Of a stretch of DNA of 38,606 nucleotides, positions 10,169-37,871 are shown one piece after another. The translations under genes were made by a program, and so were the position numbers. The first letter of the stretch is position 1; each line of letters starts with the position of its first letter. Source of the stretch: a virus; IMG/VR virus record IMGVR_UViG_3300032893_002505, positions 1 to 38,606 of that record. One strand, 5' to 3'. The notes under the pieces were generated by a model. It searched no databases, was not told the origin of the DNA, and saw only the letters and a list, made by a program, of their open reading frames with translations.

Positions 10169-11434
10169 ATGGCTGATGTACACGCAGGATCATGGTTCGG
10201 ACTTCCCGATCTCGGAATTACTGAGGCAATTGGAAAGGTTTTAGGAGCTCCGACTACTTCTCAAAACGGCTCTAATCTTTCAGCACTTGTTGGAGGACAA
10301 AACCAAGCAGCAGCCCCTCAAAAAGCAGTACAAGGCGCAAGTAGTGTTGTAAGCACTGTTGCTGGTCCCCCATCCGGTGGAACTCCTTCTACAACCCAAA
10401 GCCAACCTTCTTCTACATTTAATGTCGACCAAGCTGCAAAAACTGTCTCTGACAATGCTGCAGCACGACAAGCAGCACAAGAAGCACAAATAAGAGGCAA
10501 TATTTCAAGCGCATACCAACCTATTTTCGATGAGCTCGATAGACAAATTGGTGCCCTCCCAGGACAAGAATCTGATCTTGAAACCCAGGTTGGGACACTT
10601 GGTGACCAACAGGAAGCAACAGTAAATAGTCAGGCTGCTTCCCAAAAAGCTGATCTTGATGCATCTGCGGACCAGGAAAAAAGCGATAACAAAAGTGCTC
10701 TCAACGATTTATCAGACAATGTTCGTCACATTCTGCAAGGTGCACAATTCTATTTGGGTGGTCTTGGTGCTGGCGACTCTTCCGCTGTTACTGATGCTGC
10801 AGGCGCTATTGGCTCAACCGCTGAAAAAGCTCGAGGAGGTTTACTTAATACACTTAATCAAGGATTACAAAAAATCCAACAAGCAAAAAATGATGTTGAT
10901 ACTGTTGCTAACCAAAACCTCCAACAGATCGAAAACTGGAAGACCAATGAATTGGCAACAATTAAGTCTCAGTTCCAAGATCAATTGAACCAACTTTACA
11001 CAGCAAAGGCAAACGCTCAGGGACAAGAAGGTACTGCGATTGCACAGCTTATTACTGGTACAGAGCAGCAATTCAACCAGGTGCTTACCAATTTGGATAG
11101 TGCAGTATTTAATTACAAGACCGCAGTTGCTCAATGGGCAGACCAGAGACAGGCAACGCTTGATGACAATTTGAAGCTCCTTGCAGCAACTGGTCAATAT
11201 AGCTCCACAAGTGCTGGAGATTATGCAACGCAATTAGCAAAAGTAGGCAATTCTTTTGTCCCAGTTGTAACAAATAAAGCAACTGGCGAGGTGACCCAGG
11301 GACAGCCAGTTGGGTTAGGAAATGTACAGGATCAATCAAATCCATTGCAGTCATTATTCTCTAACATTGGTGGTTTGCTGGGAAATGGCAACAACACTGG
11401 TGCAACGCAAATAGACACTGGTGCATTACAATAA
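10169..11434 (+). CDS. Ala/Gln-rich internal virion (ejection-type) protein
   Basis: 421 residues, extremely rich in Ala, Gln, Ser and Thr, with almost no Cys. Residues 1-90 are low-complexity, and 90-370 form long coiled-coil helices with heptad-like spacing. The C-terminus is Gly/Asn-rich. Composition and its place just before a 1223-residue Ala-rich protein, upstream of the tail genes, match the internal core or DNA-ejection proteins of short-tailed phages (T7 gp14-16, P22 gp7/16/20). There is no family motif I can name. Confidence 0.65.
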   Translation: MADVHAGSWFGLPDLGITEAIGKVLGAPTTSQNGSNLSALVGGQNQAAAPQKAVQGASSVVSTVAGPPSGGTPSTTQSQPSSTFNVDQAAKTVSDNAAARQAAQEAQIRGNISSAYQPIFDELDRQIGALPGQESDLETQVGTLGDQQEATVNSQAASQKADLDASADQEKSDNKSALNDLSDNVRHILQGAQFYLGGLGAGDSSAVTDAAGAIGSTAEKARGGLLNTLNQGLQKIQQAKNDVDTVANQNLQQIENWKTNELATIKSQFQDQLNQLYTAKANAQGQEGTAIAQLITGTEQQFNQVLTNLDSAVFNYKTAVAQWADQRQATLDDNLKLLAATGQYSSTSAGDYATQLAKVGNSFVPVVTNKATGEVTQGQPVGLGNVQDQSNPLQSLFSNIGGLLGNGNNTGATQIDTGALQ

Positions 11435-20670: not shown

Positions 20671-21543
20671 ATGGCATACGAACTTTCTGATGTGTTTATT
20701 GGGAACTTCCCTGTGACACAAGATTTCGGGGCTAACCCTGATGTATATGCTGCTAGATATGGACTACGAGGACATAATGGGACAGACTTTGGTTGTCCAT
20801 CTCTAACACCTGTCTTGGCGGCAGCTGATGGGTTTGTCAGTGAGTCTGGGTTCGATGCGGGAGGATATGGTAATTATGTTAAAATCGTACACAACGGCTA
20901 TCTCACGCTCTATGGCCACCTTAATGACATCGCGGTCAAACTTGGTGATAAACTTATTAAGGGGCAACTTATCGGACATTCCAATAATACGGGATTTTCG
21001 AGTGGTCCTCACCTCCACTTTGGAGTAGCACCATGCGATGCAAAAGGAGTTAAAACACAACCTGACAATGGTTTCTCTGGCTATATCGATCCACAAGGCC
21101 CTGACTGCCACTGGACAATTTCTAACCCAACTGCTCCAGTTTTGCCATCAGACAACATTCCTTCAGAAATCCCTGTGCCAACTGACGACTTTAATCGGGC
21201 AGTTGCTCAAGGGACTAATTACAAAGTAATTGCACAATATGCACTCCAAAACGGAGCAAATGACTTTTTGGAAAACTCTGGCCAAGGCATGATCGATTTA
21301 ACCAATAACCCCAACGATCCAAAAGGTGGAGAAAAAGTCGCTATGTGGATTGGAGACTTACTCGGACAAATTCGAGCGCTCAACACTGCCACTCAAAAAG
21401 CACCTGACACTTCCCTAACGCCAGCGGTTGATGCATATGCAAAAATCCAACAAGCCACCGCAGCTCTCCCCACCGAAACGAAACAGAATATTTTCCAAGC
21501 AATTGGAAATATGTTTGCGAACTTATTTTTTACACAACAATGA
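20671..21543 (+). CDS. M23-family (LytM) peptidoglycan peptidase, lysin
   Basis: 290 residues without a signal peptide. The metallopeptidase domain occupies about 10-140: GLRGHNGTDFGCPS with the H-x3-D zinc pair near residues 34-38, ALADG-like VLAAADGFV, and HLHFG near 114-118, which supplies the catalytic and third zinc histidines. M23 enzymes cut the cross-bridges of peptidoglycan. The C-terminal 110 residues are Ala/Asn-rich with helices and may bind the wall or dimerise. It heads a lysis cassette with a membrane/coiled-coil protein and a holin that overlap by four bases each. Confidence 0.9.
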   Translation: MAYELSDVFIGNFPVTQDFGANPDVYAARYGLRGHNGTDFGCPSLTPVLAAADGFVSESGFDAGGYGNYVKIVHNGYLTLYGHLNDIAVKLGDKLIKGQLIGHSNNTGFSSGPHLHFGVAPCDAKGVKTQPDNGFSGYIDPQGPDCHWTISNPTAPVLPSDNIPSEIPVPTDDFNRAVAQGTNYKVIAQYALQNGANDFLENSGQGMIDLTNNPNDPKGGEKVAMWIGDLLGQIRALNTATQKAPDTSLTPAVDAYAKIQQATAALPTETKQNIFQAIGNMFANLFFTQQ

Positions 21544-21893
21544 TACATGATCCAATTTCAATCCTCGGAGGGATTTTTGTAGTTATAACAGGTGTTTGGT
21601 CACTACTTTCTTCGCACGGCAAAGTTGATAAAACAACCTTTGAAGCACTCATAAAAGAAATCGAGAAAAAAGACAAAATGCTTGAAGAGCAGAAGAAAGT
21701 TGACGACCGTCTGCAAATGCAAATTTCCGAGCAAACAAAAAGAATTTATCAACTGCAAAAAGAAAATGATTTGGAAGACGCTATTCTTGAAAACCGAAAC
21801 CCAAAACTCGAGCAAGCACTTACTGCACTAACAGCCGGAATGACAAGAACTCTTGAAATTCTCGGGGATGCGGAGGTGACAACAAAAGAATGA
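21540..21893 (+). CDS. Membrane-anchored coiled-coil protein in the lysis cassette
   Basis: 117 residues, overlapping the peptidase stop by four bases. Residues 4-24 form one membrane helix (ISILGGIFVVITGVWSLLSS), and 30-80 form a charged coiled coil rich in Glu, Lys and Gln. This layout fits an inner-membrane spanin-like or holin-partner protein. No Rz1-like lipoprotein is nested in another frame that I can see. Confidence 0.65.
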   Translation: MIHDPISILGGIFVVITGVWSLLSSHGKVDKTTFEALIKEIEKKDKMLEEQKKVDDRLQMQISEQTKRIYQLQKENDLEDAILENRNPKLEQALTALTAGMTRTLEILGDAEVTTKE

Positions 21894-22225
21894 AACCAGG
21901 GTATCAAACAACAGAATTTTGGTCAGTAGTTATTAGTTATGTCTTAGGTTTTTTTGTGATGGGCGGGACAATAACACAACAACAAGCCAATGATTTAATC
22001 CAACCAATTGCGCAAATCGCAGTGGCAATAGTTATCATTGTTGCTCAGGTGTATTACTTGAAGAGTCGAACTGTTTTGAAGAAAGCACTTATCGAAAACG
22101 GTCAACCAGTAGCGCCAGCACCAACACAAACAGTAGAGCAAAACCCATTACTAGAGCAGCCAATTACACTAGGAGGGCCAGGACCATCCCAACAACCATC
22201 GGTGGAGACAAACCCTTTATTATAG
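21890..22225 (+). CDS. Holin-like protein with a C-terminal NPxL motif tail
   Basis: 111 residues. KPGYQTTEFWSVVISYVLGF is the start typical of a phage holin family with two membrane helices (about 10-30 and 45-65). The Pro-rich tail after residue 72 is unusual: it carries TVEQNPLLEQP at 81-91 and ends in SVETNPLL (104-111). The same motif recurs in the disordered protein at 31.5-32.4 kb and, in weaker form, in the portal. It probably makes the lesion that lets the M23 peptidase reach the wall. Confidence 0.75.
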   Translation: MKPGYQTTEFWSVVISYVLGFFVMGGTITQQQANDLIQPIAQIAVAIVIIVAQVYYLKSRTVLKKALIENGQPVAPAPTQTVEQNPLLEQPITLGGPGPSQQPSVETNPLL

Positions 22226-22322
22226 GTGATACAGTTGCGTCTAGAATGATATAGTTACTAGGCACGGATTTTATATTTATCGTTCGTCTTAAATTTTTGT
22301 TTTCTTTGTATTATTTTTCGCT
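22226..22322 (+). other. T-rich spacer between the lysis cassette and the control region
   Basis: No gene is seen. The stretch is A/T-rich with long T-runs and a weak CTAG...CTAG pairing just after the holin stop. It may end the lysis message, but no hairpin with a tight T-tail is clear. Confidence 0.3.
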
Positions 22323-22361
22323 GTGAAAACTATTTTTTAGACTTTTCACAGAAACTTTCAC
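22323..22361. repeat. GTGAAAA inverted operator repeats upstream of the leader promoter
   Basis: GTGAAAA at 22323-22329 faces TTTTCAC at 22343-22349, and a further TTTCAC at 22356-22361 lies exactly 12 bases after the second. The same heptamer with the same 12-base period occurs at 23495-23542. The cluster lies 20-60 bases upstream of the -35 box at 22382, a place where a repressor or activator could act. Confidence 0.55.
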
Positions 22362-22381: not shown

Positions 22382-22410
22382 TTGACAGCGTTTTGTCTTT
22401 ATTCTATAAA
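22382..22410 (+). promoter_or_regulatory. Strong promoter of the riboswitch-like leader
   Basis: TTGACA at 22382-22387, a 17-base spacer and TATAAA at 22405-22410 (5 of 6 matches). Transcription should start at about 22417, which is where the closing stem of the leader begins. It is one of the best promoters in the window. Confidence 0.75.
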
Positions 22411-22415
22411 TATAG

Positions 22416-22556
22416 TCCGTCACCATTAACTGGTGCGCCCCTACGCCAAGCGGGGTTAGTAAAACACTTACACAAACGTTAAAACCTATTGTTATATCCG
22501 CCAAGTTGGCTTGGCAAAAGCGTTTGTGCTTGACGGATTTAATAGTAGGTTTTTTT
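22416..22556 (+). ncRNA. Riboswitch-like leader with mutually exclusive helices
   Basis: The transcript begins with TCCGTCA (22416-22422), which pairs with TGACGGA (22531-22537) to close the element. Inside are CACCA/TGGTG around 22421-22435, CCCC/GGGG at 22438-22455, CACAAACG with CGTTTGTG (22471-22478, 22521-22528) and GCCAAG/CTTGGC (22500-22515). A rival helix pairs AAAACCTATTGTTA (22481-22494) with TAATAGTAGGTTTT (22540-22553), 14 pairs with two wobbles, next to seven T bases touching the ATG. The rival helix crosses the closing stem and the CACAAACG stem, so the two states exclude each other. No known class is recognised; ligand unknown. Confidence 0.6.
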
Positions 22557-22952
22557 ATGGAGACAACACAATTATTACAACCAAAAGCAATCCCTATTTT
22601 CGGAGGAAGTGTTTTACTTACTAACGACATGCGATGTGCATGGTGCAACAAAAAAGCCGAGGGACTGAAAATAGAACACTTCGAAGAACATCGTTACTAC
22701 GACCAACTTCATGAATTATTAGCAGAAAAATATTTTACAACCCCAGAAATTATTGCAGCAATTCGCGGGACAGCAATTCCTAACGGAATGAGACGCGAGC
22801 ATTTGATGGACTATTTTATAGAAAAGATGAAGACAAAAAAGTCAGAGAAAAAACTTGCACGCTATAAAGAAATTCTTGTAATGCTTGGACGTTTTACTAA
22901 TGACGAGTTTGAGGATATTTGTACTTTTGAGTTGGAAGAAGAGGGAAGTTAG
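22557..22952 (+). CDS. 131-residue protein downstream of the riboswitch-like leader
   Basis: The ATG at 22557 directly follows the seven-T run; a TTG at 22506 lies inside the leader stems and is rejected. Residues 25-32 hold MRCAWCNKKA with a CxxC pair, and IEHFEEHRYYD follows. The rest is helical, with a Lys-rich segment near 95-110 and an acidic end. No family is recognised. Control by the leader suggests that its product matters in a condition-dependent way. A narrow AGG element before the T-run is its only possible ribosome site. Confidence 0.7.
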   Translation: METTQLLQPKAIPIFGGSVLLTNDMRCAWCNKKAEGLKIEHFEEHRYYDQLHELLAEKYFTTPEIIAAIRGTAIPNGMRREHLMDYFIEKMKTKKSEKKLARYKEILVMLGRFTNDEFEDICTFELEEEGS

Positions 22953-22957
22953 ATAAC

Positions 22958-23064
22958 AAAAAGCGCCTCTGGATCAAAGTAGACGCATTTTGTTTTGCAA
23001 TCACAGAAACATTCCTTTCGGGACTAGCTCCGCTTTGTGCGGTTTACGGCTCCGTCTGTAATTA
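22958..23064 (-). ncRNA. Minus-strand small RNA of about 107 bases
   Basis: On the minus strand, transcription should start near 23064. AATTACAG (23063-23056) pairs with CTGTGATT (23006-22999), eight pairs with one wobble, so the 5' end is closed. Inside, CCGC/GCGG and TCC/GGA hairpins form, with AAAC/GTTT. A terminator, GCGTCT/AGGCGC with a 12-base loop and then TTTTT, ends the RNA near 22958. It ends beside the 3' end of the convergent gene at 22557-22952. No start codon with a good frame is visible. Confidence 0.6.
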
Positions 23065-23066
23065 GG

Positions 23067-23294
23067 CTACATAGTATACCTTTTCTGTCGATTTGTCAAT
23101 CTCTCTTGCAGAGTGCTAACAATATCCTTACCAAACTCTTTGATAGTTGAAACCAATCCGTTGACACCAACGAAATGGTTTGAGCCCTCAAAAGCTCCAC
23201 GGGCCAATGTATGATATTTTCGTACGGTTGGATAGGAAACCTCTTCTAGAGGGGACTGAGTTACTAAGGCGAAAATCGAGTTGTCTTGAAAAAT
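23067..23294 (-). pseudogene. Open frame without a start codon, possibly a decayed gene
   Basis: 75 codons are open from 23294 down to a TAG at 23067, reading ...LVTQSPLEEVSYPTV...FEGSNHFVGVNGLVSTIKEFGKDIVSTLQERL. The composition looks like real protein, but there is no ATG and no ribosome site; a TTG in the middle would give about 46 residues. It lies between the small-membrane gene and the small RNA, and the small-RNA promoter is nested in its last codons. A remnant of a deleted gene is the best guess. The family is unknown. Confidence 0.3.
23071..23099 (-). promoter_or_regulatory. Promoter of the minus-strand small RNA
   Basis: On the minus strand TTGACA (23099-23094) is followed by a 17-base spacer and TACTAT (23076-23071). 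The predicted start at about 23064 matches the first pairing base of the small RNA. Confidence 0.65.
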
Positions 23295-23542: not shown

Positions 23543-23564
23543 GGAGGCTAAAGAGGGGATTTTG

Positions 23565-23635
23565 AGCGAGATACCGGTAACGATCCGGTGATAACAGTTT
23601 GGAAAACTGATGTGTTGCCATTACACCAATCTCGC
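23565..23635 (-). tRNA. tRNA-Gly (anticodon UCC)
   Basis: Read on the minus strand, GCGAGAT pairs perfectly with ATCTCGC in the acceptor stem, and the discriminator base is U, as in bacterial glycine tRNAs. The D arm is GTGT/ACAC with A14, GG and A21. The anticodon arm is CAGT/ACTG around TTTCCAA, giving UCC. The T stem is ACCGG/CCGGT. The T loop is AUCGUUA, so the usual T54-A58 pair appears as A54-U58. CCA is not encoded. It would read GGA glycine codons. Total length is 71 bases. Confidence 0.7.
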
Positions 23636-31472: not shown

Positions 31473-32447
31473 ATGGGAAAACTCGAGGAATTAGCAAGAG
31501 AAATCGAAAGCATTCACGACAGGAAAGAAGAGCTTGCTCCTCTTGCTGCACATGCTCGAGACGACTCTTATCCTCGCGCAAATTTACTCCAAGAACTTCT
31601 TGACGCACGACTTGGTTTCTTCGGTCATAAACTTGCAACAGGGTATTATGATGACAATGCTGCAAACTTTGAAAAACACATGCAACAAGCTGAAGCCGAT
31701 AAACAAGCAGCAGAGCTTGTTAAAGATGCAGTAAAAGAACCAGCTGACCAACCAACGCCACCCGCAGTCGATCCAGTACAAGCAGCACCAAAAGGTCCAG
31801 AGGATTTGTGTGAGGTGTGTCAAATGAGACTTGATAGTGAATATCACCGCATGCAATGTGAAGCAGGTCCACACGAAGTCCCACCTCAACCAAGTGTTGA
31901 AAGTAATCCAAATCTTGAGCAACCAGCAGAAGTACCAGCTGAAGAAGTTGGGAAAAACGAAGGCACTGAAGATCGTCCGGTTACTCCGCCACCAGCTGAT
32001 CCAAGCGCACCAGCCCCAACAGTATCTGATGGCAATGAGGCACCAGTCGCAGAGGCAGCAATGAGTGATGAAGAACTGATGACAGATACTCCAGCGCCTG
32101 CCCAGCCATCAGTAGAGCATAATCCAAACCTTGAACAACCAAGTGCTGATTTAACACCTGATGATGCAGCGCTCTTGGATACACCAAGCGATGGCAAAAC
32201 AACCACTGATAGCATGCAGTTTGCAGAAAATCCAAACGAGAATGCAGATCAAGCAAGATCAGTAGAAAGTAATCCTAACCTCGAGGCACCAGTTGGAGGA
32301 ACTGAGTCAGCCCCTGCAGGGACACCAGAAAACGCTGATCAAGATGCACCAGAAGAAAATCAACCAGCAGCTACACCAAATGTAGATACACGATCAGTTG
32401 GCGAGAGAAATCCTCTTTTGGAAAATCCTCAGCCACAAGAAGAATAG
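31473..32447 (+). CDS. Disordered protein with four SVExNPxLExP motif repeats
   Basis: 324 residues. The helical N-terminus (LEELAREIESIHDRKEELAPL, up to about 85) is followed by a CEVCQMRLDSEYHRMQC zinc-knuckle-like patch near residue 115 and a long Pro/Glu/Ala-rich tail. The tail carries SVESNPNLEQP (141), SVEHNPNLEQP (213), SVESNPNLEAP (263) and SVGERNPLLENP (308). Such spaced short motifs suggest multivalent binding to a common partner. The same motif is on the holin and weakly on the portal. Composition resembles a scaffold or adaptor, but it is not next to the capsid gene. No family recognised. Confidence 0.6.
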   Translation: MGKLEELAREIESIHDRKEELAPLAAHARDDSYPRANLLQELLDARLGFFGHKLATGYYDDNAANFEKHMQQAEADKQAAELVKDAVKEPADQPTPPAVDPVQAAPKGPEDLCEVCQMRLDSEYHRMQCEAGPHEVPPQPSVESNPNLEQPAEVPAEEVGKNEGTEDRPVTPPPADPSAPAPTVSDGNEAPVAEAAMSDEELMTDTPAPAQPSVEHNPNLEQPSADLTPDDAALLDTPSDGKTTTDSMQFAENPNENADQARSVESNPNLEAPVGGTESAPAGTPENADQDAPEENQPAATPNVDTRSVGERNPLLENPQPQEE

Positions 32448-35576: not shown

Positions 35577-37871
35577 ATGGCAACAACCAGTAATACCACT
35601 CAGCCCTTAGAGAAAGTGGATGCCAGCGCTTCAACACAGAATGCGCTTCTTGCCGAAGCCCAACAGCATGAGGCTGACTCCTATTCCTACCTCTCAACCA
35701 TGCGTAAAGACCTCGACAACAAAGAGTCTATTCTTCTTGGTGCACGTCCTGAAGACGCACTCTCAGCAAAAGCAAAGTCTAAAATAGTCGACCAATCCTT
35801 AGCATCCATGATTATGGAAAGATCCAGTCGCGTGGTCGCCCAGCTCCCAAGCGTTGAGGCATTCGCCGAGTCTAAAAACTCAGTTGGCAAGTCGATGCTT
35901 ATGAACATCGCGCTTAACTATTTTGAGAACCATGCTGACGAAGAAGGCTCACTCTTACTAAAGTTTCGACACATGAATATTTACTCTCATGTGTATGGGT
36001 CTATGTTTGGTTTAGTCCCATGGCGAGTGAATACACGCACTGGCTACGTTGGTCCAGAACTGTTACCTATTCCAATTCGAGACTGCAGACCGCAACCAGG
36101 ACGCTTCACTATTGATAAGATGGAGTGGTTTACGGTCAGATCCACTGTCTCACTTGATTGGCTTAAGAGTCTTTCCAAAGAGCACTGGATGAATATCGAC
36201 GAGCTTATTAGTGACTACAAATCTCGCAAAGACCCAGGAGCTTCCGCACGTGGCAGCTCACAACAAAACCAGTCATACATCGAACGTCTTCGCTACCCAA
36301 CCAAAAAAGGTGATCAAGTCTTCCCAGACATTGAAATCTTTACTGAGTACCGCTATGACCAGTGGATCACCTGGGCACCTAGAAACGTGCAGAATAAGAA
36401 TAGTAAGCCATACATTCTTCGTATTGTGAAAAACCCATATCCAGAGAATATGCTTCCTATTATCGTCAAACACGCCTTCCCACTTCTTAATTCTATTATT
36501 GGCCTTGGAGATGTAGAGCGAGGAAAGACACTCCAGTTTGCTAAAAACGCGCTTATCAATTTGTACTTTGACGGAGTGAAGATGGCTATCTTCCCACCAC
36601 TGCATATCAACCTTAATGAAGTCGACCCAACCTCTATCAAATGGGGCGAGGCAGAAAAATGGTACATGAACCATCCAAATGCAGATGTACAGATTATGGA
36701 AATGCGAACCACTGAATGGCTCAACACCTTCCAGTCTACCTTTGGTTTTCTTACCACAGCTATTCAAAACCTGTCTGGGTCCACAAGCATCACAGAGACT
36801 CCTGGTGCAACCCCAACCCTTGGACGAACACCTGATGCTATCAATCAATACTCACAGAACCAATCAGCAAGGGACGCATGGGATACCTTCATGCAAGAAG
36901 ACATGGCAAAGCAACTCTACAGACGATGGATCGCACTCATTGGAGACAAGATGGAAGTCGAGCAAGCATTCAAAATCTTTGGTGCAGATATTAAAGAGAT
37001 CCAACAAGAATTCCCTGGCGAGAAGATGGTTGAGCTATTCAATACTCGAAACGGCCAACAACGCGGTACTGTCTCGTTTAGTAAAAAGCAGCTGCAAGAC
37101 GAAAATGGTGACCCAATTGAATACTCCTTTGATTTGGAACCTGGCTCAATGCAAGCACCAAACAAAGAGAACGAGTCCCAACTGGCAACAGATGTCTTAA
37201 AAGACTTTGTTGGTCCATCAGGACAATTCCTTCTTGCACAAATCCAGAAGAAAGGCAAAGACATCGACTTTGCTGAACTCTATAAGAGAAAGCTCGTTGG
37301 TGGTGGTATGAAAGACTGGGACAAAGTTATTATCGATCCACAGGCAAATGCTGGCACTGACCAAACCCTCAATGCTGGTACCCCTGCACAACCAGTTGAC
37401 CCAACAACAGGACAGCCAATCGCAGTTACTCCACAAGCAGGCGCACCTGGCGCACCCGCACTACAACAACCTGTCACCCCACAAGTGCCACAACCTGGGG
37501 CGACACCAGCTGCATCTCCCCAAGTTGTACAACCTACAGCAGGAATGCCTGGACAACAACCAGTTAATCCAGCTCAACCTGCACAACCGTCAGGTCCTAT
37601 GCCAACAGCCAAGCCTATGGTCAACTACAAAGATGCACCTGATGATATTAAACGTCAGATGGAAGCAGCCGATGGCTATGTCCCAAGCAAACAGGTAACG
37701 CCACAGCAAGTCATAGATAACGTAGCACAGACACAAGGGATGCAGCCAACTGTTGAGACAGATCCTGAACTTCCTGTTGCACCAAACGGCATTCGTGATC
37801 CGCACATTGCACAACTCCAAAAAGAAGTGTTAGGTGGTACAGGAGGGATACCGCCTACACCAGGGCAATAA
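35577..37871 (+). CDS. Portal protein (head-tail connector, large form)
   Basis: 764 residues. The core (about 50-620) has mixed helices with the usual portal features: a helical YSYLSTMRKD start, NIYSHVYGSMFGLVPWRVN, PIPIRDCRPQPG (the wing region) and a long GDVERGKTLQFAKNALINLYFDG helix. SGSTSITETPGATPTLGRTPDAIN is a tunnel-loop-like stretch. The last 140 residues are Pro/Gln/Ala-rich and end with TVETDPELPVAP (725-736), a variant of the holin motif. It sits between the terminase and the scaffold genes. Confidence 0.85.
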   Translation: MATTSNTTQPLEKVDASASTQNALLAEAQQHEADSYSYLSTMRKDLDNKESILLGARPEDALSAKAKSKIVDQSLASMIMERSSRVVAQLPSVEAFAESKNSVGKSMLMNIALNYFENHADEEGSLLLKFRHMNIYSHVYGSMFGLVPWRVNTRTGYVGPELLPIPIRDCRPQPGRFTIDKMEWFTVRSTVSLDWLKSLSKEHWMNIDELISDYKSRKDPGASARGSSQQNQSYIERLRYPTKKGDQVFPDIEIFTEYRYDQWITWAPRNVQNKNSKPYILRIVKNPYPENMLPIIVKHAFPLLNSIIGLGDVERGKTLQFAKNALINLYFDGVKMAIFPPLHINLNEVDPTSIKWGEAEKWYMNHPNADVQIMEMRTTEWLNTFQSTFGFLTTAIQNLSGSTSITETPGATPTLGRTPDAINQYSQNQSARDAWDTFMQEDMAKQLYRRWIALIGDKMEVEQAFKIFGADIKEIQQEFPGEKMVELFNTRNGQQRGTVSFSKKQLQDENGDPIEYSFDLEPGSMQAPNKENESQLATDVLKDFVGPSGQFLLAQIQKKGKDIDFAELYKRKLVGGGMKDWDKVIIDPQANAGTDQTLNAGTPAQPVDPTTGQPIAVTPQAGAPGAPALQQPVTPQVPQPGATPAASPQVVQPTAGMPGQQPVNPAQPAQPSGPMPTAKPMVNYKDAPDDIKRQMEAADGYVPSKQVTPQQVIDNVAQTQGMQPTVETDPELPVAPNGIRDPHIAQLQKEVLGGTGGIPPTPGQ

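Follow-up and report, generated by a model that had tools for sequence, protein, structure and literature searches.

In terminator/antiterminator attenuators of the type of the B. subtilis rplJL leader, a strong intrinsic terminator is placed before the gene and an upstream fold shares part of its sequence (PMC4538822). The put RNA of phage HK022, of about 70 nt, forms two long stem-loops where a phage transcript begins, upstream of a terminator, and it binds RNA polymerase (zinc-binding domain) and suppresses distant terminators (PMC9378689). Also, terminator-type orphan riboswitch candidates combine a conserved loop and hairpins with an expression platform, and they are found in front of unrelated genes.

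Here we describe a leader of ~140 nt in a virus record of 38,606 bases, analyzed over its whole length (hereafter, the window), which contains genes for a major capsid protein, a terminase and a glycosyltransferase. Given that a distant relative of this uncultured phage preserves both of its alternative folds by matched base changes, the leader appears to be a genuine gene switch outside the catalogued types, an attenuator-like element with two incompatible folds. It shares with the rplJL-type attenuators the strong terminator before the gene and the overlapping upstream fold, but in addition its terminator includes the ribosome site and the U-tract runs up to the AUG, and two GSCAAG and two CUUGNC strands offer a two-by-two choice of partners. 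As in HK022 put, two hairpins are located at the beginning of the transcript before a terminator; however, they are short and directly followed by a dedicated competing terminator, which they would have to suppress. The conserved loop, the hairpins, the expression platform and the unrelated downstream genes recall the orphan riboswitch candidates, although this leader is known from two members only.

Genomic setting of the leader

The leader lies between the lysis cassette (M23 peptidase at 20671, holin-like protein at 21890) and the early genes. A sigma70-type promoter, TTGACA-17-TATAAA, is found on the plus strand at 22382-22410 (-35 at 22382-22387, a spacer of 17 nt and -10 at 22405-22410), with a predicted transcription start at ~22416-22418. 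The preliminary description of this DNA had placed a strong promoter before the leader; this and the other sequence elements that it listed are present, with coordinates that were off by at most 1. A 9-bp perfect inverted repeat without assigned strand, CTGTGAAAA/TTTTCACAG (22321-22351), is located 30 bp upstream of the -35 and is a possible operator, judging by its sequence.

The downstream gene, on the plus strand (22557-22952, ATG at 22557), encodes a protein of 131 aa with a CxxC near its N terminus. No family match was found for this protein, and its single-sequence AlphaFold2 model (pLDDT 43) was too poor for use. Since the gene is followed by a predicted bidirectional terminator, which is the likely role of the inverted repeat AACAAAAAGCGCCT/AGACGCATTTTGTT at 22955-22994 (no strand assigned), the unit looks monocistronic. 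On the minus strand, the same hairpin and a promoter-like TTGACA-17-TACTAT frame a possible small RNA of ~110 nt (22955-23099), convergent with the 131-aa gene. Additionally, a lone tRNA-Gly (TCC) is encoded on the minus strand at 23564-23635, inside a noncoding gap of ~780 bp ahead of the early genes. A peptide, (S/T)VExNP(N/L)LE(Q)P, recurs in the holin-like protein (21890-22225) and in several copies in a 324-aa protein, and a looser copy is present at the portal end; the window positions listed for this peptide are 21890-22225, 31473-32447 and 35577-37871.

Terminator hairpin and competing fold

At the end of the leader there is an inverted repeat, 22481-22505/22529-22553, with a T7 tract (22550-22556, plus strand), and the ATG follows at once; the contact between this tract and the ATG at 22557, noted from the start, was confirmed in the sequence. 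The last six nucleotides of the 5' arm (22481-22505, plus strand) are a copy of GSCAAG (a2, 22500-22505), and the 3' arm (22529-22553, plus strand) begins with a copy of CTTGNC (b2) and contains a Shine-Dalgarno (SD)-like AGG at 22547-22549. The rival helix of the preliminary description, 22481-22494 with 22540-22553, is present, but 14 pairs proved too short an extent: the hairpin spans 25 positions, 23 of them standard pairs, with -31 kcal/mol. None of 1000 dinucleotide shuffles was equally stable (z -5.9). No other strong hairpin of the terminator type exists on the plus strand of the window, where the other runs of five or more Ts have no preceding hairpin below -11 kcal/mol. The minimum free energy (MFE) fold of the full leader, which had been suggested as a check, is the terminator, that is, the rival state.

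Upstream of the terminator, on the plus strand, we found hairpin 1 (CG-u-CACCA/TGGTG-CG, 22418-22437), hairpin 3 (CCCC, loop TACGCCAAGC, GGGG; 22438-22455), whose loop holds another copy of GSCAAG (a1, 22445-22450), and a GTAA/TTAC hairpin (22459-22471). The 5' strand of a putative antiterminator stem, the CACAAACG stem, is located at 22471-22480 and its partner at 22519-22528, both on the plus strand; their core strands are CACAAACG (22471-22478) and CGTTTGTG (22521-22528). As the 3' strand of this stem lies within the terminator loop and its 5' strand adjoins the base of the 25-bp helix, the two folds cannot fully coexist. A CTTGGC (b1, 22510-22515, plus strand) can pair with a1 or a2, which bears out the earlier statement that GCCAAG occurs twice (22445 and 22500) and that either copy is able to pair with the CTTGGC at 22510.

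On the window sequence alone, only the terminator is beyond doubt, because the other parts were marginal or ordinary in comparison with shuffles. The closing-stem element of the preliminary description, taken alone, was marginal (z -1.84; 43 of 1000 shuffles as stable), and the 5' half of the leader was ordinary (z -0.4). Watson-Crick runs of seven pairs from the 5' half to the terminator 3' arm occur in 6% of shuffles, and runs of eight pairs of the CACAAACG type in 4%. With the terminator arms held fixed, 3.9% of shuffles matched the stability of the observed pre-terminator state, and the pre-terminator fold was weak in the window (z -1.6) and better in the homologue (z -2.7). In the folding of growing transcripts, the pre-terminator fold with the CACAAACG stem was the MFE structure up to ~22544 and the terminator from 22548, while the closing-stem state was the MFE solely for transcripts with a 3' end at ~22536-22544.

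A homologous leader and its compensatory changes

No Rfam family reached its gathering score and relaxed thresholds gave only implausible weak matches, in agreement with the first impression that the leader belongs to no known riboswitch class. By blastn and tblastn, neither the leader nor the 131-aa protein had a credible match in 50,697 phage records, and IMG/VR scans with the 131-aa protein, TerL, a 1223-aa protein and the 327-aa early protein found no relatives. The scan with the capsid protein returned 11 relatives at 64-72% identity and two distant ones at 24%; only one of them, G005, was seen to reach the corresponding region, and it lacks the leader. In the same place, on the reverse strand at ~10385-10530, G005 (L057/L058) shows a promoter and an ORF of 21 codons, as well as an ATG preceded by a strong terminator. 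The pattern GCCAAGTTGGCTTGGC gave 38 matches that were judged to be chance, and a consensus pattern of both leaders gave 16 matches in IMG/VR, none with the structure.

Because related leaders were not detected by protein, DNA and pattern searches, we built a covariance model from the one leader sequence and ran it on 380 genomes, all from the phylum of a MAG in which a related capsid gene is found. One true homologue was obtained (E 2e-12, covering the full model length), in a related phage on a contig of the same capsid-bearing MAG. Covariance models run across ~780 genomes of this phylum found no third full member, so the known members are two. The sampled genomes of the phylum are nearly all of 0.5-2 Mb, which fits Patescibacteria; with one of the two phage contigs binned in a MAG of small genome size, ultra-small bacteria are possible hosts, bearing in mind that phage contigs can be misbinned. 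Other covariance matches (L067-L069 and L090-L092) look like chance, and L089, which shares the terminator arms only, was rejected as a third member. L089 (1463-1656) is a chromosomal locus flanked by a trigger factor gene and a vanW-like gene. It has a promoter of its own and a hairpin RNA of ~155 nt that is not in Rfam, and AAACCTGTTTTT and AAGAGCAGGTTTTTTT occur both in the terminator arms of this RNA and in the homologous phage leader.

On the homologue contig, a terminase-like gene, a portal with 50% identity to that of the window and the gene after it are arranged as in the window, and the leader is likewise located between the lysis end and the early genes. Its promoter, TTGACA-18-TATATT, predicts a start in the same register as in the window. 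A stable hairpin followed by a U-rich tract, as in intrinsic terminators, is found in both leaders (U7 in the window, U8 in the homologue), the ATG follows with a gap of 0 nt in each, and the homologue contig too has one outstanding hairpin with a T-run. When the two loci are compared as DNA, clear similarity is limited to the leader (22435-22556, 69%, E 6.5e-8). The gene after the homologous leader encodes a different protein, zinc-ribbon-like and of 61 aa, and the two downstream proteins show no significant similarity (E 0.38). A different dyad, TACCAGAAATTTTGGTA, lies just before the -35 of the homologue (L066), and may be an operator.

Four elements are borne out when these two sequences, the window and one homologue, are compared: hairpin 1, the terminator, the stem that competes with it, and the concerted change of CUUGSC and both GSCAAG copies. 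In the terminator, each arm carries six substitutions and all of them (6+6) fall at mutually paired positions (P 5.6e-6); among the six pair changes, four are double changes from one standard pair to another and one mends a mismatch. The CACAAACG stem retains 9 of 10 pairs, four of them compensatory, with a modest coincidence for this stem alone (P 0.07) and a 5' strand that was aligned in the homologue so as to fit. Hairpin 1 has three double, compensatory changes among its five pairs, and hairpin 3 retains its stem with a loop identical at 9 of 10 positions. Both GCCAAG copies, at 22445 and 22500, become GGCAAG in the homologue, while CTTGGC becomes CTTGCC.

The pair changes that the preliminary description proposed to look for in both states were thus provided by an independent homologue, in the CACAAACG stem and in the rival hairpin. 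The CACAAACG stem, hairpin 1 and hairpin 3 are kept in the homologue, but the GTAA/TTAC hairpin is absent from it. The closing stem fared worse: TCCGTCA (22416-22422) and TGACGGA (22531-22537) are present in the window, but a run of this kind is expected by chance in 6% of cases, and in the homologue 3 of 7 pairs survive with no coincident changes, so it was rejected as a conserved element. Its 3' strand changes in step with the terminator 5' arm. In this sense, the mutually exclusive folds initially described hold as two incompatible folds, with the CACAAACG stem instead of the closing-stem element as the competitor; the pair changes indicate that both folds are conserved and that the CACAAACG stem, rather than TCCGTCA/TGACGGA, holds the open one. 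This stem is thus a second structure that is conserved, among n=2 sequences, and that is incompatible with the terminator.

Proposed switch and alternative explanations

The best explanation, with a probability that we set at roughly 0.58, is a cis-acting attenuator leader in which a terminator that holds the SD would compete with the CACAAACG stem and with the pairings of two GSCAAG and two CUUGNC strands. Transcription from the strong promoter would yield hairpins 1 and 3 first and then the CACAAACG stem (22471-22480/22519-22528), the earliest available fold, which would enclose the terminator 5' arm and a GCCAAG/CTTGGC hairpin. The emerging terminator 3' arm would displace this fold and form the 25-position hairpin with U7. 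In the OFF state, the terminator would stop transcription at the start codon and, by hiding the ribosome-site AGG ahead of the AUG, would shut off translation at the same time. In the ON state, a signal acting on the conserved part made of hairpin 1 and hairpin 3 would hold the first fold, for example if the GSCAAG loop captures the CUUGNC at the start of the terminator 3' arm. The choice would be between a1 (hairpin 3 loop) and a2 (terminator top) on one side and b1 (CUUGSC) and b2 (start of the 3' arm) on the other: a2:b1 and a1:b2 would go with the open fold, and a2:b2 would be the terminator top. The a1:b2 pairing comprises seven pairs in the homologue, where it is seen in the predicted fold at 114 nt, and has one mismatch in the window. 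We infer four points of this scheme: that RNA polymerase would stop at this site, which way the switch works, that the loop pairs as described, and that a signal exists.

Part of these features would suit a stand-alone phage small RNA of ~140 nt with an ordinary constitutive terminator, the gene being expressed by read-through and the GSCAAG loop acting in trans, as both phages provide the leader with a promoter of its own and with a very strong terminator, and it is conserved while the downstream genes are unrelated. We find it unlikely, considering that in both phages the U-tract abuts the start codon and the terminator 3' arm contains the SD-like AGG, and that the covariation of the CACAAACG stem is not explained if the RNA has just a terminator. 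Hairpins 1 and 3 could also be the aptamer of a true metabolite or ion riboswitch, which would be a special case of the attenuator with a small-molecule signal. The loop TACGSCAAGC hardly varies, and the leader has an expression platform and precedes unrelated genes, as riboswitch classes do; nevertheless, it has no ligand candidate and no Rfam class, many shuffles fold as well as its part outside the terminator, and we consider this identity rather unlikely.

Autogenous control, where the small cysteine-rich downstream protein would bind the leader and set termination, has a model in ribosomal protein L10(L12)4 at the B. subtilis rplJL leader (PMC4538822). That both downstream genes encode small CxxC proteins and that each unit looks monocistronic would agree with it; the lack of significant similarity between the two proteins (E 0.38), when the would-be binding parts of the leader are alike, makes it very unlikely. 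The inverted repeat is also long, intergenic and located between lysis and early genes, as could be expected if it worked at the DNA level as a replication or packaging signal with incidental RNA folding, but the promoter register, the U-tract, the abutting ATG and the covarying second, incompatible stem are RNA features, and to this explanation we give hardly any weight.

Returning to the attenuator, we tentatively propose that it might represent a new sensory leader RNA class in phages of ultra-small bacteria, whose TACGSCAAGC loop would pick between two near-identical partner strands, and thus between a start-hiding terminator and the open fold, and would in this way adjust a small zinc-ribbon-type protein to the host state. 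A structured RNA is kept at the late/early junction although the portals share only about half of their residues, which suggests that an early infection step is controlled at the RNA level. Furthermore, the attenuator makes a concrete prediction, with two named folds, named strands and a defined stop point at the start codon.

As a separate observation, positions 22455-22469 of the leader and 22607-22621 at the start of the 131-aa gene are complementary at 14 of 15 positions, which was attained in 1 of 200 shuffles.
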